Shown: one piece after another, positions 3,013-33,656 of the stretch
How positions within the stretch are numbered: position 1 is the first letter of the stretch
How the letters are laid out: each line of letters opens with the position of its first letter
From: Rhodospirillaceae bacterium
Lineage (GTDB): Bacteria > Pseudomonadota > Alphaproteobacteria > Bin65
DNA: 36,873 bases
Assembly (NCBI GenBank): GCA_026709535.1
Contig: JAPOST010000056.1
Location: forward strand, 1-36,873
Direction of reading: 5' to 3'
Made by a program: the position numbers and the translations under genes
Notes under the pieces: model-generated
Seen by the model: the letters and a program-made list of their open reading frames with translations, nothing else
The model's database searches: none
What the model was told of the DNA's origin: nothing

Positions 3013-3336
3013 AACCCGCTCCGATTGCTGCCGACTGGAGCAAAAGTTGCCGGGCGGAATTCGCACCCGCCAGGGAAAGGCATCCTTTCACGACGTACAT
3101 TACTTTCGTGAGAGTCGGCAAGACCGGCCGACAGGCAATCAGCCGTTCATGAATGCGTCAGAATGCCGGCAACAGAGATAAAAATGCAATTGACAGTCAT
3201 TTGCAAAAAGTCTTTGTCGCCATCTCAAGGCTCGAGAATGAGCACTCCGAAAAAGGACGCGCCTACCAAGCTGCGATTGACAATGGCGAATCGAAATCCG
3301 GCGCAGTCCACCGAACCACTGACAAGGAGTCATCTG
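3013..3336. other. divergent intergenic region with iron-type operator
   Basis: The region lies between the leftward nuclease-like gene and the rightward iron-binding protein gene. An open frame runs back to 3163, but the SD-backed ATG at 3337 followed by a signal peptide argues that this part is not translated. It contains the 21-bp palindrome at 3185-3205. A TTGACA (3190-3195) lies inside that palindrome, with only a poor -10 candidate (TTTGTC) 17 bp further on. Confidence 0.5.
3185..3205. promoter_or_regulatory. Fur-like operator palindrome
   Basis: The 21-bp sequence from 3185 to 3205 is an inverted repeat around A3195: arms TGCAATTGAC and GTCATTTGCA match each other except for one position per arm. 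The core TTGAC-A-GTCAT resembles the centre of Fur boxes, and 12 of 19 positions match the classical GATAATGATAATCATTATC by my alignment. It sits about 130 bp before the start of an Fe(III)-binding protein gene, where iron repression would be expected. Another Fur-family protein (Mur, Irr) could bind instead. Confidence 0.6.
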
Positions 3337-10518: not shown

Positions 10519-10703
10519 GGACTGCCGCAGGTTACAGTATTCGGCAGGGTGTCGCAGAGGCTGGGTGTCACAAGGATGATACCGGAACGCTCTACTACCT
10601 TGTTTTGGAAACAAGGTTGCCGGGGTATGCCTTCTTCGCGGAAGTGCGCGAGGCAGAACCGGTATTTTACAGCCCGGAAATGGATTGAGAGTTTGCAACA
10701 GCC

Positions 10704-12724: not shown

Positions 12725-13825
12725 CTATACATTGAACCGGAACAGCATTACGTCGCCGTCCTTGACGCTATAATTGCGGCCTTCACTGCGCATCCTGCCG
12801 GCATCCTTAGCACCCTGCTCGCCGCCGTTCGCGACGAAATCGTCAAAGGAGATAGTTTCTGCGCGAATGAAACCGCGTTCGAAGTCGGTATGAATCGCCC
12901 CGGCGGCTTGCGAGGCCTTCGCCCCCTGCGGCACCGTCCAGGCGCGGGACTCTTTTGGACCGGCGGTGAAAAAGGTGATCAGGTCCAGCAGACGGTAGCC
13001 AGCACGGATCACCCGATTGAGGCCCGGTTCTTCCAGACCGAGAGCCGCCAGAAATTCCTGCTGCTCTTCGGCATCCTCCAATTGCGCCAGTTCCTCCTCG
13101 ATAGCCGCCGCGATCACGACACACTCTGTTCCATTTTCGGCTGCAAAAGCCTCAACCTGCAGTGCGTGATCGTTTCCTTCCGCCGCTGATTCCTCATCGA
13201 CATTGGCGACATAAAGAACCGGTTTTGACGTGATAAGGTGCAGATCCCGAAAGGCTTCCTCGTGCCCTTGCGGGATGTCGGCTTTCCACGCCGGCTTCCC
13301 CTCTTGCAGCACCGATAGCGCCGGTTCCATCACGACAAGGCGCGCCTTCGCCTCCTTGTCGCCGCCGGTCGCGCGACGCCGCGCCTTGTCGACTCGACTT
13401 TCAAGGCTGTCAAGATCTGCAAGCATCAGTTCGGTTTCGACCGTCTCGATGTCCCGGGTCGGGTTGACTGATCCTTCGACATGGTGGACATCACTGCCGC
13501 CGAAACAGCGAACGACATGCGCGACGGCGTCAACCTCCCGGATATTGGCTAGAAACTGGTTACCCATGCCATCGCCTTTGCTGGCGCCACGAACCAGTCC
13601 GGCAATATCGACAAACTCAAGTTGAGTTCGAATGATCTCAGCGGATTTTGCAAGGGTGGCGATTTGGGTCAGCCGTTCGTCTGGGACCGAGACACTCCCA
13701 ACGTTGGGCTCTATCGTACAAAAGGGGTAGTTCGATGCTTCCGCAGTCGCTGTGGCGATCAATGCGTTGAACAGCGTGGACTTCCCGACATTCGGCAGAC
13801 CAACGATTCCACACTGAAATCCCAT
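12725..13825 (-). CDS. ychF: ribosome-associated ATPase YchF (OLA1 family)
   Basis: 366 residues, full length. An Obg-family P-loop protein that binds ATP in preference to GTP and associates with ribosomes. Seen directly: [14 protein letters not shown] (Walker A, residues 9-22), [30 protein letters not shown] (switch II region), the nucleotide-specificity segment VLYVANVDE, a coiled alpha-helical insertion, and a C-terminal TGS domain ending ENGDVM-like ([11 protein letters not shown]). Its ATG abuts the stop codon of pth directly, the usual pth-ychF pairing. Confidence 0.97.
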
Positions 13826-16340: not shown

Positions 16341-16407
16341 GAAGTTCCCCTACCACGCCCCTGCTCGGAGTGTCCCCGCCCCCAGAAGCGGATGAGTCGG
16401 ACGGGTT

Positions 16408-16545
16408 CTAACAAGCTGTCACAAGCCTGTAAATGAGGGGTCTTCCGATCTGATGGACCGCGGCTTCTTTTCCGTCAATCAATACCAAACCGGGCGATGA
16501 GGGCGGCCCGTCTATCCCGGATGACAGGTCATCTGACGAGGACAT
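16408..16545 (-). CDS. candidate 45-residue small protein upstream of prs
   Basis: ATG 16545 has a strong AAGGAGG ribosome-binding site five to six bases upstream. The peptide is Ser/Asp-rich at the start (MSSSDDLSSGID) and then reads LVLIDGKEAAVHQIGRPLIY, with no recognised family, membrane segment or cysteine cluster. The reading frame is open further upstream to 16611 but without a better start. The ribosome-binding site and start codon sit inside a perfect 7-bp inverted repeat (GAGGACA / TGTCCTC, 3-nt loop), so translation might depend on RNA structure. It could be a small protein or a regulatory leader of prs; it could also be chance. Confidence 0.4.
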   Translation of the reverse strand: MSSSDDLSSGIDGPPSSPGLVLIDGKEAAVHQIGRPLIYRLVTAC

Positions 16546-16649
16546 TGTGTCCTCCTTCTCGCGCTTGACCAAGCGCAATTGGATGGACAAGGCCAATTCG
16601 ATAATCAGCACGCACGGAGGCGTTCACCAAAAGTTCGGTCTCCGGCGCG

Positions 16650-16874
16650 CTATTCTACCGGACTGTCACTGATGTGATGCAACAGATGGGCGTCATTCGA
16701 ACTCAGCACACGCCAGATGTGGTTCGGTACCAGTATTCCAGTCTGCGCCTGTGATGCCCAGGCGCTGAAACCCGGCACCTCGTCTGCGCGCATGGAGCGA
16801 TCAGGCGAGCGCCACCAGACTTCGTCGCAGGAATTACAGTTGTACAACCGACGCCTTCGGCGCCGTATCGCCAT
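16650..16874 (-). CDS. doubtful 74-residue ORF with a CxxC pair
   Basis: An arginine-rich start is followed by LYNCNSCDEVWWRSPD and a tryptophan-containing helical stretch (ILVPNHIWRVL). The CNSC motif could be half of a zinc ribbon, but no second cysteine pair is present and there is no Shine-Dalgarno sequence. It may be a remnant or a chance frame. Beyond it, 16875-17071 holds nothing I can recognise; this 16546-17071 stretch is the left border of the defence operon. Confidence 0.3.
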   Translation of the reverse strand: MAIRRRRRRLYNCNSCDEVWWRSPDRSMRADEVPGFSAWASQAQTGILVPNHIWRVLSSNDAHLLHHISDSPVE

Positions 16875-17071
16875 GCTGAACGCCGCGGACGATAGCCGGT
16901 CGCGAGTGGAAACCAGCCGTGCGGCTTCCGAAATTCCACCGAAACTGTCCGACCAGATTTCATGAAGTTTCCAAGCTGCCGGCTCTTCCCTTGGCGCACG
17001 AATGATCGAATGTCGCTATCGGTTTGGTATTCGGCTTTTCCGAACGACTGGCCGCACCGGTGTGGAGGCGC

Positions 17072-19123
17072 TCAATCAGCCATCAGCAGATCGTCGAGAA
17101 ATTCCGATACAGGTTCGACGCCGGTTACCAACAGGTGATCGCGAGCGCGTGTACAGGCCACATAAAGCAGATGCCGTTCCGTGCTGTAGGTTTCTTCAAG
17201 GTCACCTTGGTCAGCGATATTCTCGATGCGTGATTGCAAGGGCAAGATATCGTCGTCACATGCAACGACCGCCACCGCCCGAAATTCCAGCCCCTTGGCA
17301 GCATGCATGGTACCCACCGTGACCCCCTCCGATACGCCGGTCGCTCTCCCGGTCAGTTCCTGTTCTACCAGTCCTGCGCGCCGAACGGACTCTCGCGCCC
17401 TTGATGTTTCTGCTGCCGATCTGACGAACACTGCGATTTCGGAGGGGATATAGCCTTCCTCGAAGCGTTCCTTGAGCCAGTCGGCAACGGCTGTCATCTC
17501 CTCTTCGGGTGATCCGAACGCCATGACACATGGTTTCGGACCGTTGAAGGCCGAGACCGTGCCGCTTCGTCCTTCCGTGATTCCATCCACATCGGCAAGT
17601 TTGGGCGGCAACAGGCGATCCGCCTGCCTGCGAATCTGGTGAGAGGTTCGATAGTTGACCCGCAGAGTGTGAGAGCGTCCTCGCACATCCACCCCCAACG
17701 CGCGCCAGGAAAAGGGCGTCCGGAAAATACGCTGGCCGAGATCGCCAGCAAAGAACAGCATGTCGGGATGCCCGCGACCGACGGCGGAAAGAAAGCGCAG
17801 TTCTGCGACACCGATGTCTTGAGCTTCGTCAATGACATAAAAATCGAACGGCGGGTGAACCGGTCCGGCGAAGTGGCGTTCCAGACAGCGGAACATGCGA
17901 GGTTCGGTCAGCAGCATTCGGTCATCAAGACCTTGCCGCACGGCATCGAAAATCGACCAAAGAGTCGCCCGCTGGGTTTCCGCCAAGCGGGTCTTGCGGC
18001 CGAGCCGCGTGACGTCTCGATAGGCTTCCCAACTATCCAACTGCCAAGCGTCCACGACAGTCTCCCATTCGGTCATCAGGAAATGCAAACTGAACCGGTG
18101 ATCGCCTGCATCGACAGACGCCCGTCCCATCAGTTCCCGGAGATCATCCTTCGCGACCAGCTGAAGCGGCCCGAAATTGGCTTCGTAGAGTCGCCGACCG
18201 ATGCTGCCCATCGCGTGCACCTCCAGACGCTCGGCGATTCGGGGCTGGTTCTGCACCAGATATCCCAGCCTCAGGCGCAAAGCGTTGGCAAGTGTCTCGG
18301 AAAAGGTGGCAAGGAGAATACGGGCATCGGGATGGGTACGGGCGAGATGAACCCCGCGATGCAAGGCGACAATGGTCTTTCCCGTTCCCGCCGAACCGGA
18401 TACGCGCGCCTGGCCACTGTAATGGGTCTCGACGATCCGTCGCTGCGCCGGGTGCAGAAAGACGATCCATTTTTCCCAGGGACAGTCAAGCGCGTGTCGC
18501 AGTTCTTCAACGTCTTCCACCAAACGGAACCGGCGCTGCGCATCGGGATGATCGAAGGGATCAGAATCGGCGGCGGCGGGATGCTGCTGCGCTGGTGAGC
18601 CACCCGTCGCAAGCTCCAGAAGCGCCTCTGCCGCTTCGGCTGGAAGGTGTCCTGCGAGGTCGAGCACCGTGTTTTCGTCGGCGTTTCGTACATCGTTCAG
18701 CCAGGGCTCTGGAACGCCATAGCCCAATAACTCTTCATCCGACACGGTTGCGAAGAGCGTCGGCGTGGTGACGACGGGAGATCTGGAGGAAACGTCCGCG
18801 ACTCCGTATTGAAGTGTTTCGATCTCGCGAACGGTCTCTCGGATCTCGACGATCTGAGCTGCACCGGTTTTGGGATGCCTTTCGATCCGTCTTCGTTCGG
18901 CCCAGCGATAGGCGGCATCATGATGGCCGACATAAACAAGCATGACGCTTGAGGCTGTCCGGTGAACGATCAGACGGATGGCGCGGTCGACTCGGTGAAA
19001 TGATAATCCTGGCACCGAAGGATCGACCTGTAGGTCGAAGGCCGTGGTCTTTGCCGCCTTTTGCTCTTCCCCGGTGAGCTTCGCGAGACTCGCTGTAAAG
19101 GTGTCGGCGATACGGAACTGCAT
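17072..19123 (-). CDS. SF1 (UvrD/PcrA-like) helicase with RelE-like N-terminal domain
   Basis: 683 residues. Residues 1-80 look like a RelE/YafQ-type fold: FRIADTFTASLAKL then FHRVDRAIRLIVHR and MLVYVGHHDAAYRWAERRRI, the usual helix-then-strands ending in a His/Tyr/Trp-rich segment. The rest is a superfamily 1 helicase: Walker A GSAGTGKT (243-250), DEAQD (432-436), VNYRTS motif IV-type segment, GTMHAAKGLEF (motif V) and YVACTRARDHLLVTG (motif VI). It is the last gene of the operon, starting one base after the stop of the protease gene. A DNA-translocating effector or regulator role is inferred from context; whether the RelE-like part is an active RNase is unknown. Confidence 0.85.
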   Translation of the reverse strand: MQFRIADTFTASLAKLTGEEQKAAKTTAFDLQVDPSVPGLSFHRVDRAIRLIVHRTASSVMLVYVGHHDAAYRWAERRRIERHPKTGAAQIVEIRETVREIETLQYGVADVSSRSPVVTTPTLFATVSDEELLGYGVPEPWLNDVRNADENTVLDLAGHLPAEAAEALLELATGGSPAQQHPAAADSDPFDHPDAQRRFRLVEDVEELRHALDCPWEKWIVFLHPAQRRIVETHYSGQARVSGSAGTGKTIVALHRGVHLARTHPDARILLATFSETLANALRLRLGYLVQNQPRIAERLEVHAMGSIGRRLYEANFGPLQLVAKDDLRELMGRASVDAGDHRFSLHFLMTEWETVVDAWQLDSWEAYRDVTRLGRKTRLAETQRATLWSIFDAVRQGLDDRMLLTEPRMFRCLERHFAGPVHPPFDFYVIDEAQDIGVAELRFLSAVGRGHPDMLFFAGDLGQRIFRTPFSWRALGVDVRGRSHTLRVNYRTSHQIRRQADRLLPPKLADVDGITEGRSGTVSAFNGPKPCVMAFGSPEEEMTAVADWLKERFEEGYIPSEIAVFVRSAAETSRARESVRRAGLVEQELTGRATGVSEGVTVGTMHAAKGLEFRAVAVVACDDDILPLQSRIENIADQGDLEETYSTERHLLYVACTRARDHLLVTGVEPVSEFLDDLLMAD

Positions 19124-19124
19124 T

Positions 19125-21629
19125 TCAGGACCCGACAGTTACAGGCGTGTCTATGCGGTCCGCTACGGCGGTGTATAGATCGACATCCGTTTCCGGCGCC
19201 CGGATGCTGACGACCAGGGAGTAACGCGCTGTTTGATCGTACCGTTCCAAGTTTGGACGCGTTCGCCACCAGCCCATCGCAGGGTAGACGGCTATGTGTC
19301 CTCGACTTGCAAGATCGGCAGCGCTTCCGCGCCAGACATCCCCATGCAAAGAGCCTCTATGACGATTCTGTGCGCCGATCAGCCACGCCGTGTCTCCATG
19401 GCTCCGTGCACGCCCTTCCTCTTCGTCCCGGGCCGCTGCGTTGATCCGGCCTCGAAACGCATCGATTGATTCGAGGGGTCTTTTCACATCGAACCGAAGG
19501 CCATGGGACGCGTACCGGTATCGTGAAGCGACACCCCTCTGCGAAGGGTTCGGTTCGACGAAATAGGAGAGCGTCACGCGCATCTCAACTTGAGTCTCTC
19601 CCATATCCTCAAGTATGTCGACAGGCCATGGCAGAGCGTGGACATGCATGTCGCGCGTGGTAACCCGGCCTCCCGGCTCCCTCCTGAAGGGGTGAAGCCT
19701 CTCTTGCACCACCATGGTCAGGGAATTGGAGACGCTCCAAAGAGCGCGGCGAAGATCGGGCACTCCAAACCCGCAACGCCTCACCAGGGCCTGGTAGTCG
19801 GCTCTCGACGGGTTCCCACCTGCAGGCAGGAACATGCGTTCCATGGCGCCGGTCCATTCCGCAGAGTGGACGATGAGAGCACGGACCGCTTCCGGCCACA
19901 GCCCGGGATACTCGGCCATCACTTGGGCTGCGAGCCGGGATGCAAGTGCGGTCGCCGCGCTCGTGGCGTTCGTCGTTGTAAGGGGCCGGTCTACGGGAAG
20001 ATGGTGAGTCGTCAAGAGGCTGAGACTCGGCATCGGAACCGGTCCCAATGCGTCTTCGGCCGCGTTACCTCCTTCGCACACCACGTCCGGCTTGAACGGC
20101 CAATACCGCTGCCAACTGACGGATGTTGTGCTGAACGGGCTAAGGCCGCCATCGGGAGCGATCGGCGTGTAGGCGCCCGCATCCGGTTCGGTGATCCGGA
20201 CAAGCTCCGTAAAGGCGCCGACCGTGAGAGCGTTCCAGGCCTGGGCCGGGTCATGCACTCCGTCGGTCTCGTTGCTGGCCGGATATTGGGACCACGCGTA
20301 GGGGTCGATGACATTTCCCGCCGAGACGATGAGCAGGCGTGGTTGAGCCCCGTAACCGTCCATATCCGCAGCCAGCGAATCGAGCACTGCGGACCACGCG
20401 GACGGTTGCCCCCGATCCCGGTTGTCCCGGGCCGTGACGGCCATGCCGAAGACCCTTGGTCGGGCCGGAGCGGTGATTTCAGGTCGGCTCACCGCCTCGA
20501 TTGTGAGAAGACCGTGGTGGCGGGAATCGTTTCCGCCGGCGCCGTCGTGCGGCAACAGCTTTACCGATTCGAGGCGATGACTGACTTCTATCGGGCTTCG
20601 GCTGCCGAGTTGTTCCGTCAGGTTTCCAGCCAAGGCCAGTCCGGCCATCTCGGTACCGTGACCGTGGGCGTCGTCGGTTCCCCACGCCGGCTCGACAGTA
20701 TGCAGATCGGTTACGGCGAGCGCGGGCGCGAGGAGAGGGTGGCCCCGGTTGACGCCCGTGTCGAGCAGGCAGACATGAGGCGCCGAGTTGCCATCGGGCG
20801 TGAAACGGGTTCGGGCCAGCAGATCCTCAAGCCACTCGCGTTGCTCTTCGGGTGCAAGGGAATCGAAGAAATCCGCCGTCTCTTTCGGCCGCCGAAGTTC
20901 AGCGATGCTGTTGAGCGTGAGGATGGAGTTCTGCATCTCCGCGACGGAGGCGCGAACCAGCAGCACCGAACGCTCCGGGAATTTCAGTTCTCCCTGCGCG
21001 ACCACCATTCCCTGAGCTGCCGCGAGGCGGCGAAAGGAGGCAAGCACGGCCTCCCGTTGTTTCCGGATCGGCAGCCAGACTTCCCACCACAGGGGGCCTT
21101 CGTCTTCGTCTGGAAATTCTTCGGCATCATCCGTCCAGAGTGCGTGGAGGCCGGCTGCCCGGATCTGTCGAATGGCGTCGATCAAGCGCTGGTTATCGCG
21201 AGGCCGGTCGATGCTGTCCCGCTTCTCTGACAGATAGTCGCCAATAAGGCCTTCAAAATGAGTGAGCTTGCCATCAGGAACGAAAACGGTTGCGTGCGTG
21301 CGGTTTTCTTCCTGGCGAACGTTCAGCAACTCGATGCCCTGGTGTTCCCGGGCGAGGCTCTCGAAAGCCAGTTCGATATCAGGGAAGCTTTTGAATTCGA
21401 CCTGAAGACCAAGCCCATCCTCAAGCCCGGCTTCCCTTTGGGCATCGCCCGCGGCGGCCGCCTCGTTTCGCAGTTCCTCGATTTGGCGCTTCAGGTCGCC
21501 CGCGTGCTGAGCGCGGTTTCGAGCCGGAATCGGTGACCGACTACCTCTGCCTTGCGATCGATAAGCCTCTGTTTCGGTCACTCCTTCAAGGATGAAGTGC
21601 CGACGTCTCTCGTCTATTCCGTTCGGCAT
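19125..21629 (-). CDS. ietS: subtilisin-like serine protease of IetS type
   Basis: 834 residues. The first 280 residues form a mixed alpha/beta region with no signal peptide, so it is cytoplasmic. The S8 catalytic set is complete: Asp290 in LLDTGVN, His324 in GHGTEMAG, oxyanion Asn439 in SAGN and Ser557 in TSAATALAS. A C-terminal region of about 200 residues follows. S8 proteases paired with a small AAA+ ATPase form the IetAS module, first described as a plasmid toxin-antitoxin pair in Agrobacterium and later reported as anti-phage; in that scheme the protease is the toxic partner. It lies 18 bp after the ATPase gene and one base before the helicase gene. The cellular substrate is unknown. 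Confidence 0.85.
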   Translation of the reverse strand: MPNGIDERRRHFILEGVTETEAYRSQGRGSRSPIPARNRAQHAGDLKRQIEELRNEAAAAGDAQREAGLEDGLGLQVEFKSFPDIELAFESLAREHQGIELLNVRQEENRTHATVFVPDGKLTHFEGLIGDYLSEKRDSIDRPRDNQRLIDAIRQIRAAGLHALWTDDAEEFPDEDEGPLWWEVWLPIRKQREAVLASFRRLAAAQGMVVAQGELKFPERSVLLVRASVAEMQNSILTLNSIAELRRPKETADFFDSLAPEEQREWLEDLLARTRFTPDGNSAPHVCLLDTGVNRGHPLLAPALAVTDLHTVEPAWGTDDAHGHGTEMAGLALAGNLTEQLGSRSPIEVSHRLESVKLLPHDGAGGNDSRHHGLLTIEAVSRPEITAPARPRVFGMAVTARDNRDRGQPSAWSAVLDSLAADMDGYGAQPRLLIVSAGNVIDPYAWSQYPASNETDGVHDPAQAWNALTVGAFTELVRITEPDAGAYTPIAPDGGLSPFSTTSVSWQRYWPFKPDVVCEGGNAAEDALGPVPMPSLSLLTTHHLPVDRPLTTTNATSAATALASRLAAQVMAEYPGLWPEAVRALIVHSAEWTGAMERMFLPAGGNPSRADYQALVRRCGFGVPDLRRALWSVSNSLTMVVQERLHPFRREPGGRVTTRDMHVHALPWPVDILEDMGETQVEMRVTLSYFVEPNPSQRGVASRYRYASHGLRFDVKRPLESIDAFRGRINAAARDEEEGRARSHGDTAWLIGAQNRHRGSLHGDVWRGSAADLASRGHIAVYPAMGWWRTRPNLERYDQTARYSLVVSIRAPETDVDLYTAVADRIDTPVTVGS

Positions 21630-21647
21630 GCTACGATCGAGTGCCCC

Positions 21648-22418
21648 TTACAACACAGTCTTGTCATTCAGCCTATCGGAGATGGTCTTGCGCTCCTCCA
21701 GCATGACCAGGATGTCCGGTTCCCGGACGCAGTCGCGTCGATTGATCAATGCATCCTTGAGCACCTCGTCGGCGGCACGCGCGACTTCCGCGTAATTCAA
21801 TCCTGTCGCAGCTTTGGCGAGCCTCGCCCATTGAGTTGTCTCCTCGGTGCAGCTTGCAAGGCGTACCTTGAGAAGCTTTGCGATTTGCGCTTGGACGGGA
21901 AGATCGTAGTGCAGCACGTCATCGAAGCGCCGAAACAGCGCCGGATCAAGGAGGTCCGGATGATTGGTCGCCGCAATGACAAGGCTGTGGGAGCGATCCT
22001 GCTCAATCATTTGAAGAAAGCTGTTCAGCACCCGGCGAATCTCGCCTACGTCGTTGGCCAGCCCGCGCTGCGAGCCGATCGCATCGAATTCGTCGAAGAA
22101 GTAGACACCCCGAGTCTTTGCCGTAGCGTCGAAGACCTGCCTGAGCTTGGCCGCCGTTTCCCCCATGAACTTGGTAATGAGACCATCGAGCCTGACCTGC
22201 AGGAGTGGGAGGCCGAGTTCGCCGGCGAGGACGGAAGCTGTCAGTGTCTTGCCCGTTCCCGATGGGCCAACCAGTAACAGTTTGCGTCTTGGAGCAAGGC
22301 CATGCTCCAGAATGCGGCCGGCATGGCGTTGCTCTCGGATGACACGCTGGATCTGGGCGGAGAGCTCTTCCCCCAGAATCATTTCTCCTAGCCGGGCATT
22401 TGGATAAGAATCTTCCAA
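21648..22418 (-). CDS. ietA: AAA+ ATPase core, IetA type (3' part of a frameshifted gene)
   Basis: 256 residues if begun at the in-frame TTG 22418. It contains Walker A GPSGTGKT (51-58), the pore-like loop DGLITKFMGE, Walker B VYFFDE (105-110), AATNHPDLLDPALFRRFD (sensor 1 and arginine finger) and a C-terminal helical lid. The frame is open upstream of 22418 without a start (reading GRPRGELATLL just before it), and the missing N-terminal helical domain is encoded in the adjacent frame at 22427-22642. The two parts together would make a normal IetA-like ATPase of about 330 residues, so a one-base deletion, a sequencing error or recoding is likely. In IetAS the ATPase is the antitoxin or regulator of the S8 protease encoded next. 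Confidence 0.85.
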   Translation of the reverse strand: MEDSYPNARLGEMILGEELSAQIQRVIREQRHAGRILEHGLAPRRKLLLVGPSGTGKTLTASVLAGELGLPLLQVRLDGLITKFMGETAAKLRQVFDATAKTRGVYFFDEFDAIGSQRGLANDVGEIRRVLNSFLQMIEQDRSHSLVIAATNHPDLLDPALFRRFDDVLHYDLPVQAQIAKLLKVRLASCTEETTQWARLAKAATGLNYAEVARAADEVLKDALINRRDCVREPDILVMLEERKTISDRLNDKTVL

Positions 22419-22426
22419 AAGGGTCG

Positions 22427-22642
22427 CTAACTCGCCGCGCGGGCGTCCGATGTGGGCACAGGCGAACCCAAGCCGCGTCGGCTCTTGGCATCGTCGATGA
22501 TGGCGCGCAGTTCTTGGGCGAGCTTACCATGGCCGCGCTTCGCCTCATGGGCGGCGACCTGCATTGCAACCGAGTAGAAGCGGTCGTCATCGCCGTCCAG
22601 GTGCGATTTCAGCAACGCCTTGACGTGTTCGGCACTAGCCAC
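22427..22642 (-). CDS. ietA: N-terminal helical domain of the IetA-like ATPase (5' part, frame-shifted)
   Basis: 71 residues from GTG 22642, with GGGAG about eight bases upstream. The sequence ASAEHVKALLKSH, then DDRFYSVAMQVAAHEAKRGH and KLAQELRAIIDDA, is the helical N-terminus normally joined to the small AAA+ ATPases of S8-protease modules. The stop at 22427 falls just after PVPTSDARAAS, where the alternative frame reads on into the ATPase core. Moving between frames needs a -1 shift somewhere in roughly 22430-22470. It starts 30 bp after the methyltransferase stop. Confidence 0.7.
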   Translation of the reverse strand: MASAEHVKALLKSHLDGDDDRFYSVAMQVAAHEAKRGHGKLAQELRAIIDDAKSRRGLGSPVPTSDARAAS

Positions 22643-22672
22643 AGGGCTTCTCCCGGTATTGGGCCAAATGCG

Positions 22673-25450
22673 TTACACCCGAAATACCTTCATCGCCTCG
22701 TCACCGAGGTGATTGATGACCTTGACGGCGATCCGACCGGAGGCAGGTTTGGGAAACGGGCGAGAGATGTCGCTGTTCAGTGTGGCCCAAGCGTCGGGGT
22801 CGATCTCGGCCTTGAGCGTTGTCTTGAGCGCCTTGTAGGGGTCGTTCGCACCGAGGAAATAGGCGTGGCGGACGAAAAAGCTCTCCTCGTTATAGTCGGA
22901 GTCGACGAACCAACAGGCGATTCCCTCCGCGCCGTCGCTCCGCACCTCACCGGTGTTGGGGTGAAAGACATCGACACCGTTGATCCGTACTCGGATGTTG
23001 TCGACATCCTCACTGAGGATGTCTATGTCCGGCTCGCCGAAGATAACGAAGAGGTTGCCCTTGCCGGTGTTCTTCAGGTCGCCGGCCATGTGGAGGTCGG
23101 CGTTCATGCGCGCCTTCAGTACCGGGATACGACCGAGGTTCTCGAACTCGGCCGCGTGGGCGTCATAGCTGAAGGCACAGGCAATCAGCACGTCGAACCC
23201 GGCATTGGCCGCCTCCCGCGCAGCGGCAAGCAGATCCTCTCGGGCAACGGTGCCGAACTCGGGCCCGATAAAGACGCCGGCGCGGCGCGTAGCGCCAGTC
23301 TCGCCATCACCCTCCACATAGCGCCCTTCGGCGCAAACATAATGGCCGGGCCAAGGAGAGAGCGCAGCGAATTCGATGCGATCCGCCTTATGCGCCTGCT
23401 GCACTCCGGCGGTCTTCAGGTTCTCCAGGATTATCTCGGTGAAGTTGGGGGCCTCGCCGTAGCCGAGCTTCTTGTCGGTGAGTGCCGAGAAAACTTCATC
23501 GTTTTCGTCCACGGCGAGCATCCTGTGAGGACTTGCACTCTCGACCGTGAAAGGACCGGCGACGCGGATGCGGTTTCTGTCCTCATATGGCTTATCGTAA
23601 AGATACTCTTGGTCCGCCTTGGCGGCGATGGAGGCATCGATTTCCTTTTGCCGAGCGATGCGCGCTTCCCACCATTGGGCATGCACGGTCGCTGCATCGG
23701 CCGACCAGCCACCGCCCACTTCGCGGGGGATTTCCCACTCCTCCCACTGCTTGCCGAGGGCTGCATTGAGTTGGGCGCGGAGCGGCTCCAAGGTCTCTTG
23801 CCACTTCTCCCAGATTACGTCGATCTCGGTATTGTTCGCGATGGATTTGAGCGTGATATGCGGCACGCGCTCATAGACGAAGCCCTGCCGGATATCGCCG
23901 GCCGTCGGCGCTTCCGAGGGCGGACGGCGCGTGATCTCGCCTTCCTTGCGCTGCCCTTCCGGGCTGTCGGCCAGCAAATACCAGGGATAGCGCGCGCCCA
24001 TCACCCGCGCGCGCGCCAGCGCCAGCGCCACGCGGGAGGTGTCAATGGTGATCCAGCGCCGCCCCCATTGCTCCGCGACATAAGCGGTGGTGCCGGAGCC
24101 GCAGGTAGGGTCCAGCACGAGGTCGCCAGGGTCGGTGGTCATCAGGATGCAGCGTTCAAGAACTCGCGGGTGAGTTTGGACCACATAAACCTTTTCCATG
24201 CCGAAACCGCTTATGCCGGTATCAAGCCAGCCGGATCCCATCGGAAAATACGGCGCATCGTCAAAATACCTTACATATCTGGGTGTATTTCCAATTCGGA
24301 TAATACGACCAGACTTCTTTAATCTTTCGATACCAGAACGATTGGATTTCCATCCTCCCTTTTGTGGTTCTTGGATTGATACACCATCTAAAGAAAAGGG
24401 AAAAATCGTCGTTTCGTTTCCAGTTTGTGAGGTTAAATCTCCATGCGCGAATACCCTTCCTTCATTGTCATCATCAAGCGATCGAAATGAACCATCTAAA
24501 CGCATAGAGAAATTATATTGTGTAGCTCCAGACTCTCCTAATCTTCTCTTCAAATATGGACGCCGAAATTTTACCGCCTCTATATCTTTAGCAAACCAAA
24601 CAAGATAGTCAAAAGTTTCGTCTAGGAACTTTCCTCCTAATCCTGAAGTTTTGGAAAACTTGATAGAGACGACAAAATTCTCTTCCCCAAACACCTCATC
24701 CATCAACGCCCGTACGCGATGCACGTTCTCATCCCCGATCTGAACAAAGACTGAGCCGCTGTCCGTCAGCAAATCTCGCGCTACAGTCAGCCGGTCTCGA
24801 AGATAGGTGAGGTAGGAGTGCATGCCATCGCGCCAGGTGTCGCGAAACGCCTTTATCTGCTCTGGCTCGCGGGTAATGTGATCCTCCTTGCCGTCCGTCA
24901 CATCGCGACTGGTGGTGGACCACTGGAAGTTCGAGTTGAACTTGATGCCGTAGGGTGGATCGATGTAGATGCACTGTACCTTGCCACGCAGGCCTTCGCG
25001 CTCCGCCAGCGAGGCCATGACCTGCAGGCTGTCGCCGAGGATCATGCGGTTCGACCAGTTAGCATCGTGCTTGTAGAATTCGGTGCGCGCAGCTTCGCTC
25101 GGCAAGCCGTTGAAATCGGCAAACAGGTTGGGAATTTCCGGCGACTCTTCATCCCGCCGCTCCCTGGTCTGACACAGCAGGTCGTCAATCAGGACCTTGG
25201 GGTGCACCTTCTCCTGGATGTAGAGAGGTGGCGCCTGGACGACGAGTTCGGCAGCATCCTGTTCGTCCTTGCCGCGCCACACCAGTTGCGGGTCGAGGTC
25301 ACGGTTGCGGCGCTCGTAGGCCACTCGGATCGGCTTCTTGTCCTCCTCCGCCATGACGGGTTGGTATTCAGCGGTCGGGATGTTGCGCCGTTGCGCCTCG
25401 TCATGGGTCAGCGTCTCGACGGATTTCGGTCTTGCAGGCCTGCGCGCCAT
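22673..25450 (-). CDS. type III-like adenine-specific DNA methyltransferase (Mod)
   Basis: 925 residues. Catalytic motif IV DPPYG is at 164-168 and the AdoMet-binding motif I DPTCGSGTT at 447-455, the order of beta-class N6-adenine methyltransferases such as type III Mod. The target-recognition region lies between them. A long C-terminal half (500-925) is conserved in appearance but without named motifs. It should mark the host's own sites so that the restriction subunit encoded upstream does not cut them, and in type III systems also supplies sequence recognition to Res. Its ATG directly abuts the HepT stop (TAGATG). DNA for residues about 254-404 is much more AT-rich than the rest. Confidence 0.92.
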   Translation of the reverse strand: MARRPARPKSVETLTHDEAQRRNIPTAEYQPVMAEEDKKPIRVAYERRNRDLDPQLVWRGKDEQDAAELVVQAPPLYIQEKVHPKVLIDDLLCQTRERRDEESPEIPNLFADFNGLPSEAARTEFYKHDANWSNRMILGDSLQVMASLAEREGLRGKVQCIYIDPPYGIKFNSNFQWSTTSRDVTDGKEDHITREPEQIKAFRDTWRDGMHSYLTYLRDRLTVARDLLTDSGSVFVQIGDENVHRVRALMDEVFGEENFVVSIKFSKTSGLGGKFLDETFDYLVWFAKDIEAVKFRRPYLKRRLGESGATQYNFSMRLDGSFRSLDDDNEGRVFAHGDLTSQTGNETTIFPFSLDGVSIQEPQKGGWKSNRSGIERLKKSGRIIRIGNTPRYVRYFDDAPYFPMGSGWLDTGISGFGMEKVYVVQTHPRVLERCILMTTDPGDLVLDPTCGSGTTAYVAEQWGRRWITIDTSRVALALARARVMGARYPWYLLADSPEGQRKEGEITRRPPSEAPTAGDIRQGFVYERVPHITLKSIANNTEIDVIWEKWQETLEPLRAQLNAALGKQWEEWEIPREVGGGWSADAATVHAQWWEARIARQKEIDASIAAKADQEYLYDKPYEDRNRIRVAGPFTVESASPHRMLAVDENDEVFSALTDKKLGYGEAPNFTEIILENLKTAGVQQAHKADRIEFAALSPWPGHYVCAEGRYVEGDGETGATRRAGVFIGPEFGTVAREDLLAAAREAANAGFDVLIACAFSYDAHAAEFENLGRIPVLKARMNADLHMAGDLKNTGKGNLFVIFGEPDIDILSEDVDNIRVRINGVDVFHPNTGEVRSDGAEGIACWFVDSDYNEESFFVRHAYFLGANDPYKALKTTLKAEIDPDAWATLNSDISRPFPKPASGRIAVKVINHLGDEAMKVFRV
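24240..24690. other. AT-rich insert within the methyltransferase gene (target-recognition region)
   Basis: This stretch is near 40% GC by eye, against roughly 60% on both sides, with abrupt edges. It encodes residues about 254-404 between catalytic motifs IV and I, where beta-class enzymes keep the target-recognition domain. The reading frame is intact. The pattern suggests replacement of the specificity domain by recombination. Confidence 0.6.
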
Positions 25451-25831
25451 CTACTCGTCTTCCCTTCCGGCGGTCTCGATCAGATGTCGCAACTGCGGCA
25501 AGAGACTCGGAATATCCTTCGTGACAATATCCCAGACTATGTCGTCGTCTATGCGGAAATAAGCATGTGCCAGTCGGTTGCGGAAACTCACGATGCGCCG
25601 CCAGTCGATTTTCGGGAATGCATCCCGAACCCCCAGGGGAATGTGCGATGCCGCCTCGCCGATCAATTCCAGATTGCGCAGAACGGCATGATAGGTCCGG
25701 GCGTCTTCGACAAATACGGCCATGTCCATACCATCGGTAAAAGACACGACATTTTCTCCGAATTGGATCATGTCCCGGACATACTGATGCCAGCCGCGTG
25801 ACGACCCACCGTCGTCAGACATGGATAGCAT
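25451..25831 (-). CDS. hepT: HepT-like HEPN toxin (DUF86)
   Basis: About 126 residues. The helical HEPN core ends in FRNRLAHAYFRID, containing RX4HXY (Arg81, His86, Tyr88, counted from the internal Met at 25822), the catalytic motif of HepT RNases and the site that the MntA antitoxin AMPylates on tyrosine in the characterised Shewanella pair. HepT acts on RNA in the cytoplasm when not neutralised. Three closely spaced ATGs exist (25843, 25831, 25822); 25831 is chosen for a GGAG just upstream, 25822 gives the family's typical N-terminus. The gene overlaps the end of the restriction gene, whose C-terminus is an MntA-like domain, and abuts the Mod start. Confidence 0.9.
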   Translation of the reverse strand: MLSMSDDGGSSRGWHQYVRDMIQFGENVVSFTDGMDMAVFVEDARTYHAVLRNLELIGEAASHIPLGVRDAFPKIDWRRIVSFRNRLAHAYFRIDDDIVWDIVTKDIPSLLPQLRHLIETAGREDE

Positions 25832-28800
25832 CCCGCTCCACATGGGGACGGATATCTTCGTGCAACGCCTTGTCCGTCACCAGATCGACGGGGCGGCCGA
25901 GGAGATCCTCAATATAGAACTGCGCGCCGAAGTAACGATCCGATGTCGCCGGTCCGTCAAAGCGCACCAGAACATCGACATCGCCGTTGCCGTTGGTCGC
26001 GCCCCGGGCCACGGAGCCGAACAGGAACAGATCAAGGATGTGGAACTGTCGCATCAATTCCGCCTTGTGAGCCCGTAGAAGCGCCAGCACCTCCTCCCGG
26101 CCTCTCGCCTGTGATCCCGCCGCTTCTCCTTTTCCGGTCAATCGCCGGCCGGCTTCGATTTCAGTGAAAGAGCGCAACCGCTCGACCGTCCGGTAGAACG
26201 CGGCCTCCATGTCACGAATATCGGTGAACTCCACGAATTTCCACCGCCCGCAGGAGCCCAGAGCGTTTACGCCCGGCACCCAGTAGGTCTCCATGGCGGA
26301 TCTCTTCTCTGCCGCTTTTCCGTCAGGATAGCCCTTGATTTCGACTACCAGATGCAGCAGGTCGTCCGCACCGTGCCCGTCATCGACCAGCACAACGAAG
26401 TCGGGAATGTAAATCCGGGATTCCGAGCCGTTGCGATAAGGCACCTCAAGGCCAAGACCGTGATTCTTCGTGTAGGCGCGAACGCGCGGATGTCCCTCGG
26501 CAATGCGGCAGAACTCGGCCTCCCAGTCGCTGTCGCAAACGACATGGTTGATGTGGCAATAGCGTGCGTCGGTCTTCCAGGTCTTCTTCGATGTCGCAAA
26601 GCGAACGTGACTTGTCGATCCGGACGGGTTGAACGGATCAAGCACCACCTTGACCGGACGCTCTCTGACATGGTGCGCAACGATGGCTTGCGTGATGCGT
26701 TCGCATGCCCTGTCGGCAAGCTCAAGATACATGAGTTGTGCCGGGTAAGTGCCATCCTCGCAGACGAGATGATTGTCGAGCCACTGGCGCGCGATGCGCT
26801 TGAGCTGTCCGAACAGGTGCAGCTTCGGCTCCTCGCCAGGGTCGCGCCACTTGGTCTCCAGCAGGCGCTTTGTCAGGTGAAACAGCAGCGTCGAACTCCG
26901 CAGGTTGCCGGTGTGAACCAGATCGAGATCAACCCCTTCGCCGATGATTCCTTCGTTGCGTGTGCGGGATGGACCGACCAGAGCAGGCGTCAGGACCAGG
27001 GTAGAATCGTCCCTGAAGTTTGCTTGTAGACGCTCCTCCGGCAACTCGACGCGGTACCCGGCAACGCGCGGGAAACGGATTTCACAGGCATCACGTTCCG
27101 GCGAGATGGCCCTGACCTCCACCGTCTTTCGCGGCTTCTGCGGTAGAGCAACCATGGGTTTGGCTGTAAAGTCGAAGGGGATGCCAAGCACGTCGGCATA
27201 CTCGACGGGCAAGACGCCGTTGTCATTCAATTCATAGGATTGACGGCGCAGCGAGCGGCCAATTGCCTGCTCGCAGAGAAGCTGCGTGCCGAACGCGCGC
27301 ACGCCAAGTACATGGGTCACCGTGTTGGCGTCCCAGCCTTCAGTGAGCATCGACACCGAGACGACGCACCGGGTCACGCCGCCAAGCCGGCCCTCCTTGC
27401 CGACAGTGTTCATCGCCTCGCGCAGCAGGTCCTGATCCGACAGATTCTCGGCGCGCTTCCGATCGCCCGTCCGCTCGACGATCTCGCGGCGAAACCGGTC
27501 GATCTCGTCGGCCGCCATGGTACGGAAATTCCGGTCGAGTGCTTCCCCTGACTCGAGCTGCTCGCTGTCGATCAACAATGTGCGCGGTCGCGCGATGGCA
27601 TTGCCGTAGTCGTCGAAATTCCGGAACAGTTCGAGGCGTCCGTTCACCAGTTGCGTCGAGCCGTCCGGGTTCTCGCGCTCGAAACCCGAGATGTAGTCGT
27701 AAATCAGCTTCGATGTCGACGTGTTGTTGCAGACTACGATGAAACAGGGCGGCACCTCGATGCCTGCCTCCTCCCAAAGCGAGAAAGTCCTTTCGTAGTG
27801 GCCGTACAGCGCTTGTAGCGCTGTCTGCAGAGGCACGGGCAGGAGCAGCGGGTCAAGCTCTGACGCCTTGCCGCGACCTTTCTTCGGCATGTCCTTGCCG
27901 ATATGTTCCCAAAGGTTGCGGAACTTGGGCATGTCTGCGCCGGGAATGTTGTCGGCGACCGGAACCCGCGGCAGCTTGACGATACCGCATTCGATCGCAT
28001 CCATCAGCGAAAAGTCGCTCACGGTCCACGGAAAGAGCGTGCCTTCGGCGTAGCCCGAGCCGCGCAGGAAGAATGGCGTCGCCGAGAGGTCGAGCACGCG
28101 GGACAATCCGAGACTTCGTCCCACCGCTTCCAGCCCGGACATCCAGAGCCTTGCGGCATCCCGATTCTTCTCCGCTTCCTTGCGATCATCGCCCGTGAGC
28201 TTGCCTTCGTCGTCTTCGCCCGGCTTCTCCCGGTAGCAGTGATGCGCCTCATCGTTCAGAGCCAGCACGTTCTTCATGCCCATCAGTTCCGGCATCACGC
28301 GCTTGAGCATCTGGCCTTCGGTCTCCTGTGATCGAAGTTCCGGACCGCGCCCTTGGAGAAGCGCACGGCCGCCCTTGGAGACATCCATTGTTTCGCGGAG
28401 ATTGAAGGCGTGAAAATTGGTGATGACGACTTTGGCGCGATCAAGATCGCCCAGCATGTCGCACGGCACCAGTTCCCGACTGCGATAGTAGCTATCCGGG
28501 TCGTTCGGCTGAAGCACACGGAGCCGGTCCTTGATCGTGATTCCCGGAGTCACGACCAGGAAACCACGGCTGAAACGTCGGCTGTTCGGCCGGCGGACGG
28601 CGTTGATCGTCTGCCAGGCAATCAGCATCGCCATGACGGTCGTCTTGCCGGCTCCGGTGGCGAGTTTCAGGGCGAGCCTGGATAGATCGGGATTTGCCTG
28701 GTTGTTCGCTCGTTCGAGATGTTCGACAAAACGCTTTCCGGTCGCAAGCTGGGGTGCGACTTCCGTCAACCAAATCACCGTCTCTACCGCCTCGACCTGA

Positions 28801-29186
28801 CAGAAGAAGGGTCGGAAGTGGTTGAACTCGTGGTGTCTCCAGTGATGCAGCAGCCGCGCCGTCTCCGGCGTGACCCGCCACTCACCAAGATCCGCCCGCT
28901 GCCGCCAGTCATGAACGGCGTTTCGCACGCTGTTGATAGTCGACGCGAGTTCGTATTGCTGTCCATCAGCGGCGACCCGCCGCGCTTCCTCGTCGAAATT
29001 CAGCGTGTGTTGGGCACCTTTGCCCTTTTTCGGTCCGGGAATCGGCGTGATAAACGAAACATCCCGCCTTTTGTTGACAATGCGGTTGGTAGGCTGGCCG
29101 CTGCCGTCAAGCTCCCAATGCTGCCCGGGGCTCTTGTAAGGTGAGTTGAGAATCGGACGGTCGAAAAACCGATTACCTGCTTCCAT
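25815..29186 (-). CDS. type III-like restriction helicase-nuclease fused to an MntA-type nucleotidyltransferase
   Basis: 1123 residues, first gene of the operon. The N-terminus FDRPILNSPY with PGQHWELD marks the BPTD_3080-like restriction family. Helicase motifs follow: ATGAGKT (176-182), DEAH (312-315) and SATPF (368-372). A PD-(D/E)XK nuclease is visible late in the chain, IPDFVVL with Asp929 and VVEIKGY with Glu949 and Lys951. Unusually the frame continues into a minimal nucleotidyltransferase (about 1030-1123): REEVLALLRAHKAEL, GSVARG (1057-1062), DVDVLV (Asp1069, Asp1071) and RPVDLVT, complete and closely like stand-alone MntA. The HepT gene overlaps its 3' end. So the MNT-HEPN antitoxin appears built into the restriction enzyme. 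It should translocate on and cut unmodified DNA together with Mod. Confidence 0.9.
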   Translation of the reverse strand: MEAGNRFFDRPILNSPYKSPGQHWELDGSGQPTNRIVNKRRDVSFITPIPGPKKGKGAQHTLNFDEEARRVAADGQQYELASTINSVRNAVHDWRQRADLGEWRVTPETARLLHHWRHHEFNHFRPFFCQVEAVETVIWLTEVAPQLATGKRFVEHLERANNQANPDLSRLALKLATGAGKTTVMAMLIAWQTINAVRRPNSRRFSRGFLVVTPGITIKDRLRVLQPNDPDSYYRSRELVPCDMLGDLDRAKVVITNFHAFNLRETMDVSKGGRALLQGRGPELRSQETEGQMLKRVMPELMGMKNVLALNDEAHHCYREKPGEDDEGKLTGDDRKEAEKNRDAARLWMSGLEAVGRSLGLSRVLDLSATPFFLRGSGYAEGTLFPWTVSDFSLMDAIECGIVKLPRVPVADNIPGADMPKFRNLWEHIGKDMPKKGRGKASELDPLLLPVPLQTALQALYGHYERTFSLWEEAGIEVPPCFIVVCNNTSTSKLIYDYISGFERENPDGSTQLVNGRLELFRNFDDYGNAIARPRTLLIDSEQLESGEALDRNFRTMAADEIDRFRREIVERTGDRKRAENLSDQDLLREAMNTVGKEGRLGGVTRCVVSVSMLTEGWDANTVTHVLGVRAFGTQLLCEQAIGRSLRRQSYELNDNGVLPVEYADVLGIPFDFTAKPMVALPQKPRKTVEVRAISPERDACEIRFPRVAGYRVELPEERLQANFRDDSTLVLTPALVGPSRTRNEGIIGEGVDLDLVHTGNLRSSTLLFHLTKRLLETKWRDPGEEPKLHLFGQLKRIARQWLDNHLVCEDGTYPAQLMYLELADRACERITQAIVAHHVRERPVKVVLDPFNPSGSTSHVRFATSKKTWKTDARYCHINHVVCDSDWEAEFCRIAEGHPRVRAYTKNHGLGLEVPYRNGSESRIYIPDFVVLVDDGHGADDLLHLVVEIKGYPDGKAAEKRSAMETYWVPGVNALGSCGRWKFVEFTDIRDMEAAFYRTVERLRSFTEIEAGRRLTGKGEAAGSQARGREEVLALLRAHKAELMRQFHILDLFLFGSVARGATNGNGDVDVLVRFDGPATSDRYFGAQFYIEDLLGRPVDLVTDKALHEDIRPHVERDAIHV

Positions 29187-29870
29187 GTCCTTCGATCATC
29201 CTGCCCTGCATCGCTCACAAGTTCCAAGCTATCGCGGGCCATCCGTAAATTCCAGACATGGCGTCGGTTACCACTACATTTAGCAGTACCCTGTCGCATT
29301 CGAGCCTCTTCACAGAAGACCACCTGTCGTGGTCTTGAACTACAATTCTCTTTGCTTTCCAACCCGGGCGACCTCTATCATCGCTCGCGCTTTCTCGCTT
29401 CAATCTCCACACGGATGTTCGCCACATCCCCGCCATGACGCCGCCCGGCGCAGACTTTGCGTTGTCCATCCAAACAAGCGCTGCACACCCGACCAGCGTT
29501 GTGCTGAAGACTGGACTCGACCGCCAGGATCCCGGTTGAACGCGATACCGCCCCATGTATCTGGCGGCGTTGAATGGGCGGTCACCCGGTGAAGACCCAG
29601 GCATCTGCGGAACCTCGTACGCGGCACGGTCATCATCCGAGATTGTCATCAAGGCTTCTCGGCATCCGGGTTTCCCAACGTCAGGCTCGGGATTGTATCC
29701 GCGCGGATAACCGTTGCATAGGGTCCCGGAGGGCGCCGTCGGCAGTACGGTACCGCACCGAGACACCGTCGTTTCGGGTGTCGGTCGATCGTTTCCGGAA
29801 ATCGGCCTGAATCCGTGTCTCGCCAGCCAGACGGGCGGTGATGGGCGTCTGACCACTGCCGATCCGCTTG
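29187..29870. other. 684-bp region upstream of the defence operon
   Basis: No convincing gene; a leftward 219-codon frame here has no motif and unnatural composition. It contains the perfect inverted repeat at 29316-29336 and, leftward, a possible extended -10 (TGCTAAAT, around 29280) between that repeat and the restriction gene. This is where the operon promoter should lie. No tRNA or direct repeat marking an island border was found. Confidence 0.4.
29316..29336. repeat. perfect inverted repeat upstream of the defence operon
   Basis: AAGACCAC (29316-29323) and GTGGTCTT (29329-29336) are exact 8-bp arms with a 5-nt spacer. It lies about 130 bp before the restriction gene start. No T run follows leftward, so an operator for a dimeric repressor, or a leader hairpin, is more likely than a terminator. 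Confidence 0.6.
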
Positions 29871-30866
29871 TCAAGCGGCGGCGGGCAACCTTCTCCGATC
29901 ATGCGGCTCATCAAAATCGATATCCGGACCAATCGGGATGATCAATGTCGGATTCACGGTCCGGTGGCTGCCGTAATAGTGGCTCTTGATGTGAACGTGG
30001 TTGGTCGTCTCAGCAACACCCGGCCATTGATAAAGTTCCTTGGTGAAGTTCCAGAGGTTCGGATAATCGATGATCTGCCGGATATTGCACTTGAAGTGGC
30101 CGTGGTAGACAGGATCGAAGCGGATCAGCGTCACCCACAAGCGCCAGTCTGCTTCGGTGATATGCTCACCAACCAGATACCGCTGCGAGGCCAGGCGCGC
30201 TTCCAGCCAGTCAAAGGCCTCGAACAGGTCGACGACAGCCTCATCATAGGCATCCTGAGTCGAGGCGAAGCCTGCCTTGTACACGCCGTTATTGACAGCG
30301 CGATAGACACGCTCGTTCACAATATCTACTTCGGATCGTAACGCCTCGGGATAGAAATCGATGGCCGCGTCGACGCCATCCAAGCCATCGAAAGTGCTGT
30401 TGAACATCCGAATGATCTCGGAGGATTCGTTGCTGACGATTGTATTCAGCTGTTTGTCCCACAGGACAGGCACCGTCACCCGGCCGCTGTAGTTCGGCAT
30501 CGCGGCGGTGTAGATCTCCCGCATAAAGGCAGCGTTGTTGACCGGATCGGGAATAACGCCGTCCCCGTCATAAAAGGCCCAGCCATCCTCGTGCATGCGC
30601 CAGTGAACAGCACACAGTCCTACATGCCGCTCAAGCCCTTTCAGCTTGCGGAAGATGAGGGTCCGGTGCGCCCACGGGCAGGCCCAGGAGACATAAAGGA
30701 GATAGCGACCGGCCTCGGCTTTGAAACCGCCTTTCCCGGAAGGACCAGCTCTGCCATCGACCGTGACCCAGTTCCGGAAACCGGAATCCTTGCGGACGAA
30801 TTTCCCGCCTTCAGTCTTTGTCGTGGCGCCATCATCGTGCCAGACGCCATCAAGCAAAAAACCCAT
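29871..30866 (-). CDS. glutathionyl-hydroquinone reductase (YqjG/ECM4 family), copy 1
   Basis: 331 residues. Glutathione-dependent reduction of glutathionyl-hydroquinones uses the cysteine in CPWAHR, here Cys63, the same position as in E. coli YqjG. The xi-class GST features TVPVLWDK with NESSEIIRM (glutathione site), the helical domain and the family-specific SGRVTVP and FNxxF segments are present, as is YPNLWNFTKELYQWPG. Cytosolic detoxification of quinones is the expected role. It follows a paralogue by 14 bp, so both are in one leftward operon. Confidence 0.93.
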   Translation of the reverse strand: MGFLLDGVWHDDGATTKTEGGKFVRKDSGFRNWVTVDGRAGPSGKGGFKAEAGRYLLYVSWACPWAHRTLIFRKLKGLERHVGLCAVHWRMHEDGWAFYDGDGVIPDPVNNAAFMREIYTAAMPNYSGRVTVPVLWDKQLNTIVSNESSEIIRMFNSTFDGLDGVDAAIDFYPEALRSEVDIVNERVYRAVNNGVYKAGFASTQDAYDEAVVDLFEAFDWLEARLASQRYLVGEHITEADWRLWVTLIRFDPVYHGHFKCNIRQIIDYPNLWNFTKELYQWPGVAETTNHVHIKSHYYGSHRTVNPTLIIPIGPDIDFDEPHDRRRLPAAA

Positions 30867-30880
30867 CCGACATGTCCTGG

Positions 30881-31882
30881 TCAGGCGGCCAGAGCCGCAC
30901 GATTGTGAGGGGCGGCAAAATCAATCTCCGGTCCCTTCGACACGATGCCAAACGGATTCCGCAGGTCGCTTTTCGAGTAGTAGCCGTATTTCGAGACAAC
31001 CGGGTCGACGGTTTCGGCCACCGAGGCAGTGACATAGAGATCGCGTGTATAGTTCCACAGATTTGGATAGTCGATCAGGCGTCGCTTGTTGCATTTGAAG
31101 GCCCCGTGATAGGCTGCATCGAACCGAACCAGCGTCGGGAAGACCCGCCAATCTGCCTCTGTCTGGCAAGTGCCGACCAGGTATCGCCGAGTCGCGAGAA
31201 GGTCTTCCAGCATGTCCAGCGTCTCGAAAACCGCTGTCGCCGCAGCCTCGTACGCTTCCTGCGATGTCGCAAAGCCGGCACGATAAACGCCGTTGTTGAG
31301 ATTGTTGTACGTAATCTCGTTCAGTGCATCGATTTCTACACGCTTGTCGACCGGGTAGAAGTCCACATCATTGCCCGCCACGCCGATGAAGGCGCTGTTG
31401 AGCATCCGGATGATCTCCGAACTCTCGTTGCTGACGATGGTCCGCTTCTTCCTGTCCCAAAGGACCGGCACGGTGACCCGCCCCGAATAGGTCGGGTTGG
31501 CCTTGCCGTAGAGCTCGTGCAGCGCCTCGGAGCCATTGAGATCGTCACGGAATTCTTCCGATGCCGGATCGAATATCCAGCCGCGTTCATCCCGCCGCGG
31601 CATGACCATCGACAGACCGACAGCCCCTTCCAGAGCCTTCAGAATACGGAAGATCCGTGTCCGGTGTGCCCACGGGCAACTGATTGAAACATACAAGTGA
31701 TAACGTCCGACTTCGGCCCTGAACCCGCCATCGCCGCCGAGCCCATCCGCGACACGACCTGGCTTGCCATCCGGTGTCACCCAATCGCGAAACCCGGATT
31801 GCGCCCGCGTGTATTCCCCGGACAGGCGGTCGGCGATCGGTGGCTCGTCCACGTTCCAGACCCCGTCGATCATCACACCCAT
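30881..31882 (-). CDS. glutathionyl-hydroquinone reductase (YqjG/ECM4 family), copy 2
   Basis: 333 residues, a diverged paralogue of the downstream copy. The catalytic cysteine is Cys69 in CPWAHR, with TVPVLWDRKKRTIVSNESSE, EADWRVFPTLVRFD and YPNLWNYTRDLY matching the family. The N-terminal part carries a short insertion relative to copy 1. It is first in the two-gene leftward operon and diverges from the FAD-binding protein gene 130 bp away. Confidence 0.93.
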   Translation of the reverse strand: MGVMIDGVWNVDEPPIADRLSGEYTRAQSGFRDWVTPDGKPGRVADGLGGDGGFRAEVGRYHLYVSISCPWAHRTRIFRILKALEGAVGLSMVMPRRDERGWIFDPASEEFRDDLNGSEALHELYGKANPTYSGRVTVPVLWDRKKRTIVSNESSEIIRMLNSAFIGVAGNDVDFYPVDKRVEIDALNEITYNNLNNGVYRAGFATSQEAYEAAATAVFETLDMLEDLLATRRYLVGTCQTEADWRVFPTLVRFDAAYHGAFKCNKRRLIDYPNLWNYTRDLYVTASVAETVDPVVSKYGYYSKSDLRNPFGIVSKGPEIDFAAPHNRAALAA

Positions 31883-32012
31883 GGCAGGAATCCCTCAAAA
31901 GGCTACTTCCTGACATAGACGTCGGGCACTTCGTGAGAAGGGGTACTTTCCCTGCTGTCATGAACGTGCCTGCGACTGGCGGCCTCAATCCTCCTGCCCT
32001 AGATTGGTCACC

Positions 32013-33458: not shown

Positions 33459-33488
33459 CATCTAAGGAGGTTGTCGATAGCCCATGAT

Positions 33489-33561
33489 TTGTCCGGTTGA
33501 GGTCGCCCGCGCGTTGTCCGGTTTGGTGTCTCCATGAGGAGGTACCGTGATGAACCGGACA
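33489..33561. repeat. three copies of TGTCCGGTT upstream of the oxidoreductase gene
   Basis: TTGTCCGGTT occurs at 33489-33498 and 33514-33523 (25 bp apart, about two to two and a half helical turns), and the inverse AACCGGACA at 33553-33561. The cluster lies 96 to 168 bp before the start of the indolepyruvate oxidoreductase gene and may be regulator-binding sites. Two to three overlapping tiny frames with good ribosome-binding sites (for example 33534-33602 and 33550-33621) lie in the same stretch. Confidence 0.5.
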
Positions 33562-33656
33562 TCGTGGCTTCCCAACTTCCGGCGCTTGGCAGATTGCTGT
33601 AAGCTGTCTAGATATTGTTGAATCCTGCATGGCAAAGGACCCTGGATATCAAGCCC

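Follow-up and report, generated by a model that had tools for sequence, protein, structure and literature searches.

A two-nucleotide gain places ietA in two reading frames beside an intact ietS protease gene in a Rhodospirillaceae draft genome

Introduction

How does a genome come to hold an intact protease gene next to a broken copy of the ATPase gene that would be expected to restrain the protease? The question is raised by an ietAS pair, which belongs to the anti-phage and toxin-antitoxin systems, in a Rhodospirillaceae bacterium (GenBank assembly GCA_026709535.1, contig JAPOST010000056.1, 36,873 nucleotides, the whole of which is here called the window). Like the ietA/ietS genes of the Agrobacterium Ti plasmid, the pair comprises a gene for an AAA+ ATPase with an N-terminal helical domain followed by an adjacent gene for an S8 subtilase on the same strand, but the ietA of the window is split by a gain of two nucleotides. 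The two-gene architecture is also that of SgiAT from Salmonella genomic island 1, in which the ATPase SgiA, 50% identical to IetA, neutralises a subtilase that has toxic effects in E. coli (PMC5006074). SgiA is intact, in contrast to the ietA of the window, and the toxin and antitoxin roles have been shown for SgiAT, whereas the window pair is known from sequence. Among the genes known at the time of that study, those encoding the protease always adjoined an ATPase gene, and the ATPase genes were about twice as many (PMC5006074). SgiAT thereby lends published support to the premise of an initial annotation of this locus that the ATPase restrains the protease. The same annotation expected a real loss of ietA to be toxic unless the core restarts, which is too strong, since the SgiAT operon caused no killing when expressed from its own promoter (PMC5006074).

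Results

On the minus strand, ietA occupies two open reading frames that lie in different frames. The N-terminal part (22,427–22,642), which runs from a GTG start to a TAG stop and encodes 71 amino acids, matches positions 1–55 of the PADLOC IetA profiles. The AAA+ core (21,648–22,418), which runs from TTG to TAA and encodes 256 amino acids, matches from position 75/81 onward, is recognised by PF00004 (E 1.3e-30) and contains Walker A (GPSGTGKT), Walker B (FFDEFD) and AATN motifs. No stop interrupts the core frame upstream as far as about 22,523, the earliest ATG, GTG or TTG available in it is TTG 22,418, and the frame reads CAHIGRPRGELATLLEDSYPNARL. The linker conserved in the IetA family, IGRPRGELATLL, is encoded in this core frame at the position expected after the N-terminal domain, and it scored 42 bits against a profile of 78 homologues, whereas the best score among 2000 shuffled versions of that region was 15 bits. 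Because the PADLOC matches extend over both parts and the linker scores in the core frame, the two ORFs represent a single ancestral ietA gene that is now spread across two frames. The continuous polypeptide that a working pair, as opposed to ancestry, would need is not encoded in the window. These results agree with the initial annotation, which had identified an IetA-like ATPase with its N-terminal domain and core in separate frames, read the expected linker in the core frame and named TTG 22,418 as the first possible core-frame start.

Nucleotide and protein alignments placed the frame break at 22,451–22,456 on the minus strand, where the window, in net terms, carries two extra nucleotides compared with every homologue in the alignment. 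The exact placement of the gain is ambiguous inside this interval; in the nucleotide alignment it is flanked by the codons of PVP on one side and of IGRPRGEL on the other, is not compensated downstream and looks like a tandem dinucleotide duplication. The break had been described as a −1 shift, which is correct for the change of frame, although the change at the DNA level is a gain of two nucleotides, and the comparison with homologues that had been recommended made this gain clear and private to the window. Phase variation through the short repeat was considered and set aside, as the repeat is probably too short.

We then asked whether the split is natural, as homologues divided at the same place had been named as the observation that would overturn the idea of a broken gene. 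In homologous loci gathered with the ietA core as query, the N-terminal domain and core were in one frame in 79 of 80 loci from other genomes, which led us to reject a natural two-protein IetA. L042, a candidate second split case, is actually a 5'-truncated, rearranged copy beside an intact copy. One continuous ietA was also found in 15 of 17 loci on viral contigs. Likewise, of 460 plasmid records that matched strongly, 447 aligned over at least 80% of the query at a single location, and each of the 60 plasmid matches listed was a single piece. No homologue split at the same place was found among the 80 loci, the 17 viral-contig loci and the 460 plasmid records. The closest relative found, L005 (MAG contig MPMT01000008.1), has a core 81% identical to that of the window and shares the type III methyltransferase-like mod gene on the upstream side, but its ietA is one continuous frame. 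Because homologues, viral-contig loci and plasmid records carry one frame, the break is private to this genome, and is neither a natural split nor a conserved recoding.

Conservation outside the break was evaluated at near-invariant columns of the 78 homologues. The ietA core keeps 106 of 108 such columns and the N-terminal part keeps 29 of 32, with two of the three misses in its misframed tail; together with the PADLOC matches, this conservation places the gene among IetA-type AAA+ ATPases with a conserved N-terminal domain. IetS keeps 261 of 266 columns and retains its catalytic motifs, and the comparison revealed no compensating substitutions that inactivate ietS. Relative to L005, pN and pS were 0.10 and 0.64 for the ietA core and 0.16 and 0.57 for ietS. 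The window branch carries 13 nonsynonymous to 39 synonymous changes and the L005 branch 26 to 53, with no nonsynonymous enrichment on the window branch. These values indicate purifying selection without decay on ietA outside the break. Because the rest of ietA and the adjoining ietS are conserved, the break is either recent or an artefact, and with no further decay the lesion is not demonstrably old or fixed.

The ietS gene (19,125–21,629, minus strand) lies directly downstream of ietA, 18 nt from its stop, a gap inside the range of homologues. It encodes an uninterrupted S8 subtilase of 834 amino acids (PF00082, E 1.7e-55; PADLOC IetS) whose catalytic D, H and S motifs are in place. The combination of an intact ietS and a broken ietA reverses the usual pattern. 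In line with the published gene counts, intact ietA adjoins a frameshifted, deleted or remnant ietS in eight loci (L010, L014, L017, L022, L025, L028, L048 and L057), while no surveyed locus apart from the window paired a damaged ietA with an undamaged ietS. On one plasmid, a mobile-element insertion appears to have damaged the two genes together. Seven further loci (L012, L039, L041, L049, L052, L062 and L070) contain ietA with no recognisable ietS, and some of these ietA genes may serve another effector. The survey offers a slight evolutionary indication of polarity, with ietS lost or broken beside an intact ietA in many loci and the reverse seen in the window only, subject to the bias that loci were found by an ietA-core query, that ietS is 2.5 times longer and that other effectors may replace ietS in some loci. 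An ietS-based scan of viral contigs yielded one locus, which is too few for an unbiased count of toxin without antitoxin.

We also considered the surroundings of the pair. A UvrD-like helicase gene (17,072–19,123, minus strand) directly follows ietS, and a type III-like modification methyltransferase gene, mod (22,673–25,450, minus strand), lies directly upstream of ietA; both are recurrent neighbours of ietAS, and the pairing of ietS with the helicase recurs in many relatives. The N-terminal ~95 residues of the helicase fall outside the helicase domain and look RelE/ParE-like by eye. The block that contains this defence cassette (16,362–33,653) is missing from the corresponding chromosomal site of genomes of the same genus, where prs and the gene at 33.6 kb lie close together; in G005, about 245 bp separate the end of the prs match from the start of the match to the 33.6-kb gene, compared with 17.3 kb in the window. 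The cassette is an insertion at this site. No ietA was found in same-genus genomes, and no second ietA or ietS in the assembled 203-contig draft; trans-complementation by a second ietA was discarded for lack of such a copy in the assembly.

Other features of the region were recorded. The type III restriction-like protein (res; 25,815–29,186, minus strand) has a C-terminal MNT nucleotidyltransferase domain at residues ~1030–1122 in the same frame, and a HepT-like gene (25,451–25,843, minus strand) overlaps res. In the same-genus genome G004 (L232), MNT and HepT genes are apart from res, after mod, and Res proteins of other relatives stop near residue 1000, and for these reasons the MNT-HepT module appears to be fused into the end of res in the window. 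The draft genome to which the window belongs (G000) also contains a second, diverged res-mod-uvrD-like cassette (~50–60% protein identity), split across contigs C141 (L230) and C76 (L231). In this cassette the helicase directly follows mod with no ietAS between them, which suggests that ietAS is an optional module. Short stretches resembling dispersed repeats, at 1–109, 2,984–3,098, 10,626–10,687, 13,766–13,807 and 33,472–33,569 of the window, recur elsewhere in the genome or in same-genus genomes at ~78–98% identity.

Predicted structures were used to locate the break relative to the domains. The model of the intact IetA of L005 (pLDDT 89.7) comprises a three-helix N-terminal domain (residues 4–58), a linker and the AAA+ core, with low confidence in the linker (pLDDT <50 at residues 59–62). 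AlphaFold2 predicted a complete three-helix bundle for the N-terminal part of the window (residues 4–59; pLDDT ~96 over residues 11–50) and a disordered misframed tail (pLDDT <50 at residues 60–67). A Foldseek search with the full-length model returned proteasomal, FtsH and p97 ATPase domains as relatives, and the N-terminal domain had no significant match in the PDB, the top one being an archaeal MIT domain (E 1.7). Since the models locate the break between two domains, a split protein could in principle act in trans.

Discussion

Whether the two nucleotides are present in the cell depends in part on the quality of the assembly, of which the window is one contig (C91) among 203. Contig ends that overlap by 55 nt are a known product of de Bruijn assembly at k=55, and in all three of the overlaps sampled between contig ends here the shared length was exactly 55 nt, which looks like the signature of such an assembly and points to short reads. 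Comparison with same-genus proteins revealed no frameshift in 59 non-redundant genes (53.6 kb), including the 10 testable genes of the window, which sets an upper limit of about one frameshift per 18 kb as an estimate from the sampled genes. Because the assembly resembles a short-read one and these 59 genes are free of frameshifts, we favour a real mutation, although this evidence falls short of proof. The main rival, which we hold to be unlikely but serious, is that the gain arose as an error of sequencing or assembly, or reflects a minor variant captured in the consensus, such that the ietA of the cell would be intact and the IetAS pair would work. That both genes appear fully selected and free of other lesions fits such an error, as do the draft state of the genome and the harm expected from a broken antitoxin beside an intact toxin; set against this are the rarity of indels outside homopolymers in short-read data and the clean record of the sampled genes.

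Next comes the proposal that the split ietA still works, either because one mRNA yields the N-domain peptide together with a restarted ATPase and the two cooperate, or because the restarted ATPase suffices alone, which we consider improbable. The break lies in a linker predicted to be disordered, between domains that fold separately, and the intact ietS hints at some remaining restraint. A candidate restart codon, ATG at 22,380–22,382 (minus strand), has an AGGAG two bases upstream with an anti-Shine-Dalgarno pairing energy (−7.3 kcal/mol) equal to that of the native GTG (−7.4 kcal/mol); TTG 22,418, which the initial annotation had proposed for the restart, pairs at −3.1 kcal/mol, and the ATG is thus ranked best. 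The AGGAG may be incidental, however, because the same letters fall within codons of a motif conserved in homologues, and its spacing from the ATG is just 2 nt. Furthermore, products of either restart would be without most of the linker, at most positions of which conservation is at least 85%, and split homologues are absent from the survey. The narrower claim that a naturally split IetA, as N-domain peptide and restarted core from one mRNA, still restrains the intact IetS is given slightly less credence again. Last is programmed recoding, by −1 ribosomal frameshifting or transcriptional slippage, which would restore full-length IetA and which we regard as highly improbable and have rejected. 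The frames overlap from about 22,523 to 22,427, and a −1 shift within that interval would join both. As the initial annotation had noted of slippery sites, however, the overlap contains no in-frame X XXY YYZ heptamer, and with homopolymers of at most three nucleotides slippage is without visible support. The two-frame arrangement, moreover, recurs in no homologue and arose through a private insertion.

On balance, we lean toward the explanation that an IetAS cassette, encoding the AAA+ ATPase and the subtilase, was acquired horizontally, that the two-nucleotide gain, which falls in the linker joining the N-terminal helical domain to the ATPase core, recently knocked out its ietA, and that ietS is tolerated because it is silent or weakly expressed. 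Ribosomes initiating at GTG 22,642 would produce the 71-residue N-domain peptide and stop at 22,427, and reinitiation at ATG 22,382 or TTG 22,418 would give at most a little N-truncated ATPase, such that full-length IetA would not be made and the system would probably be inactive in defence. The intact ietS could be tolerated if it is expressed only on induction. Alternatively, early termination in ietA may lower the translation and transcript of ietS through polarity and lost coupling to upstream translation. Against the knock-out, the gain may stem from faulty base calling or assembly or from a rare variant, and the direction of loss is the reverse of that in the surveyed loci.

The lesion itself is an ordinary indel in an already known system, and the broken ietA is notable only because the adjoining protease gene is intact and the protease is toxic when unguarded in the studied relative. 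If a split IetA does restrain IetS, the N-terminal domain would be able to act in trans. If the break is real, the locus would offer a naturally occurring example of an intact protease gene next to a disrupted gene for an antitoxin-like ATPase, and would test whether IetS is harmful by default, is silenced when translation of ietA fails or is restrained by a split IetA.
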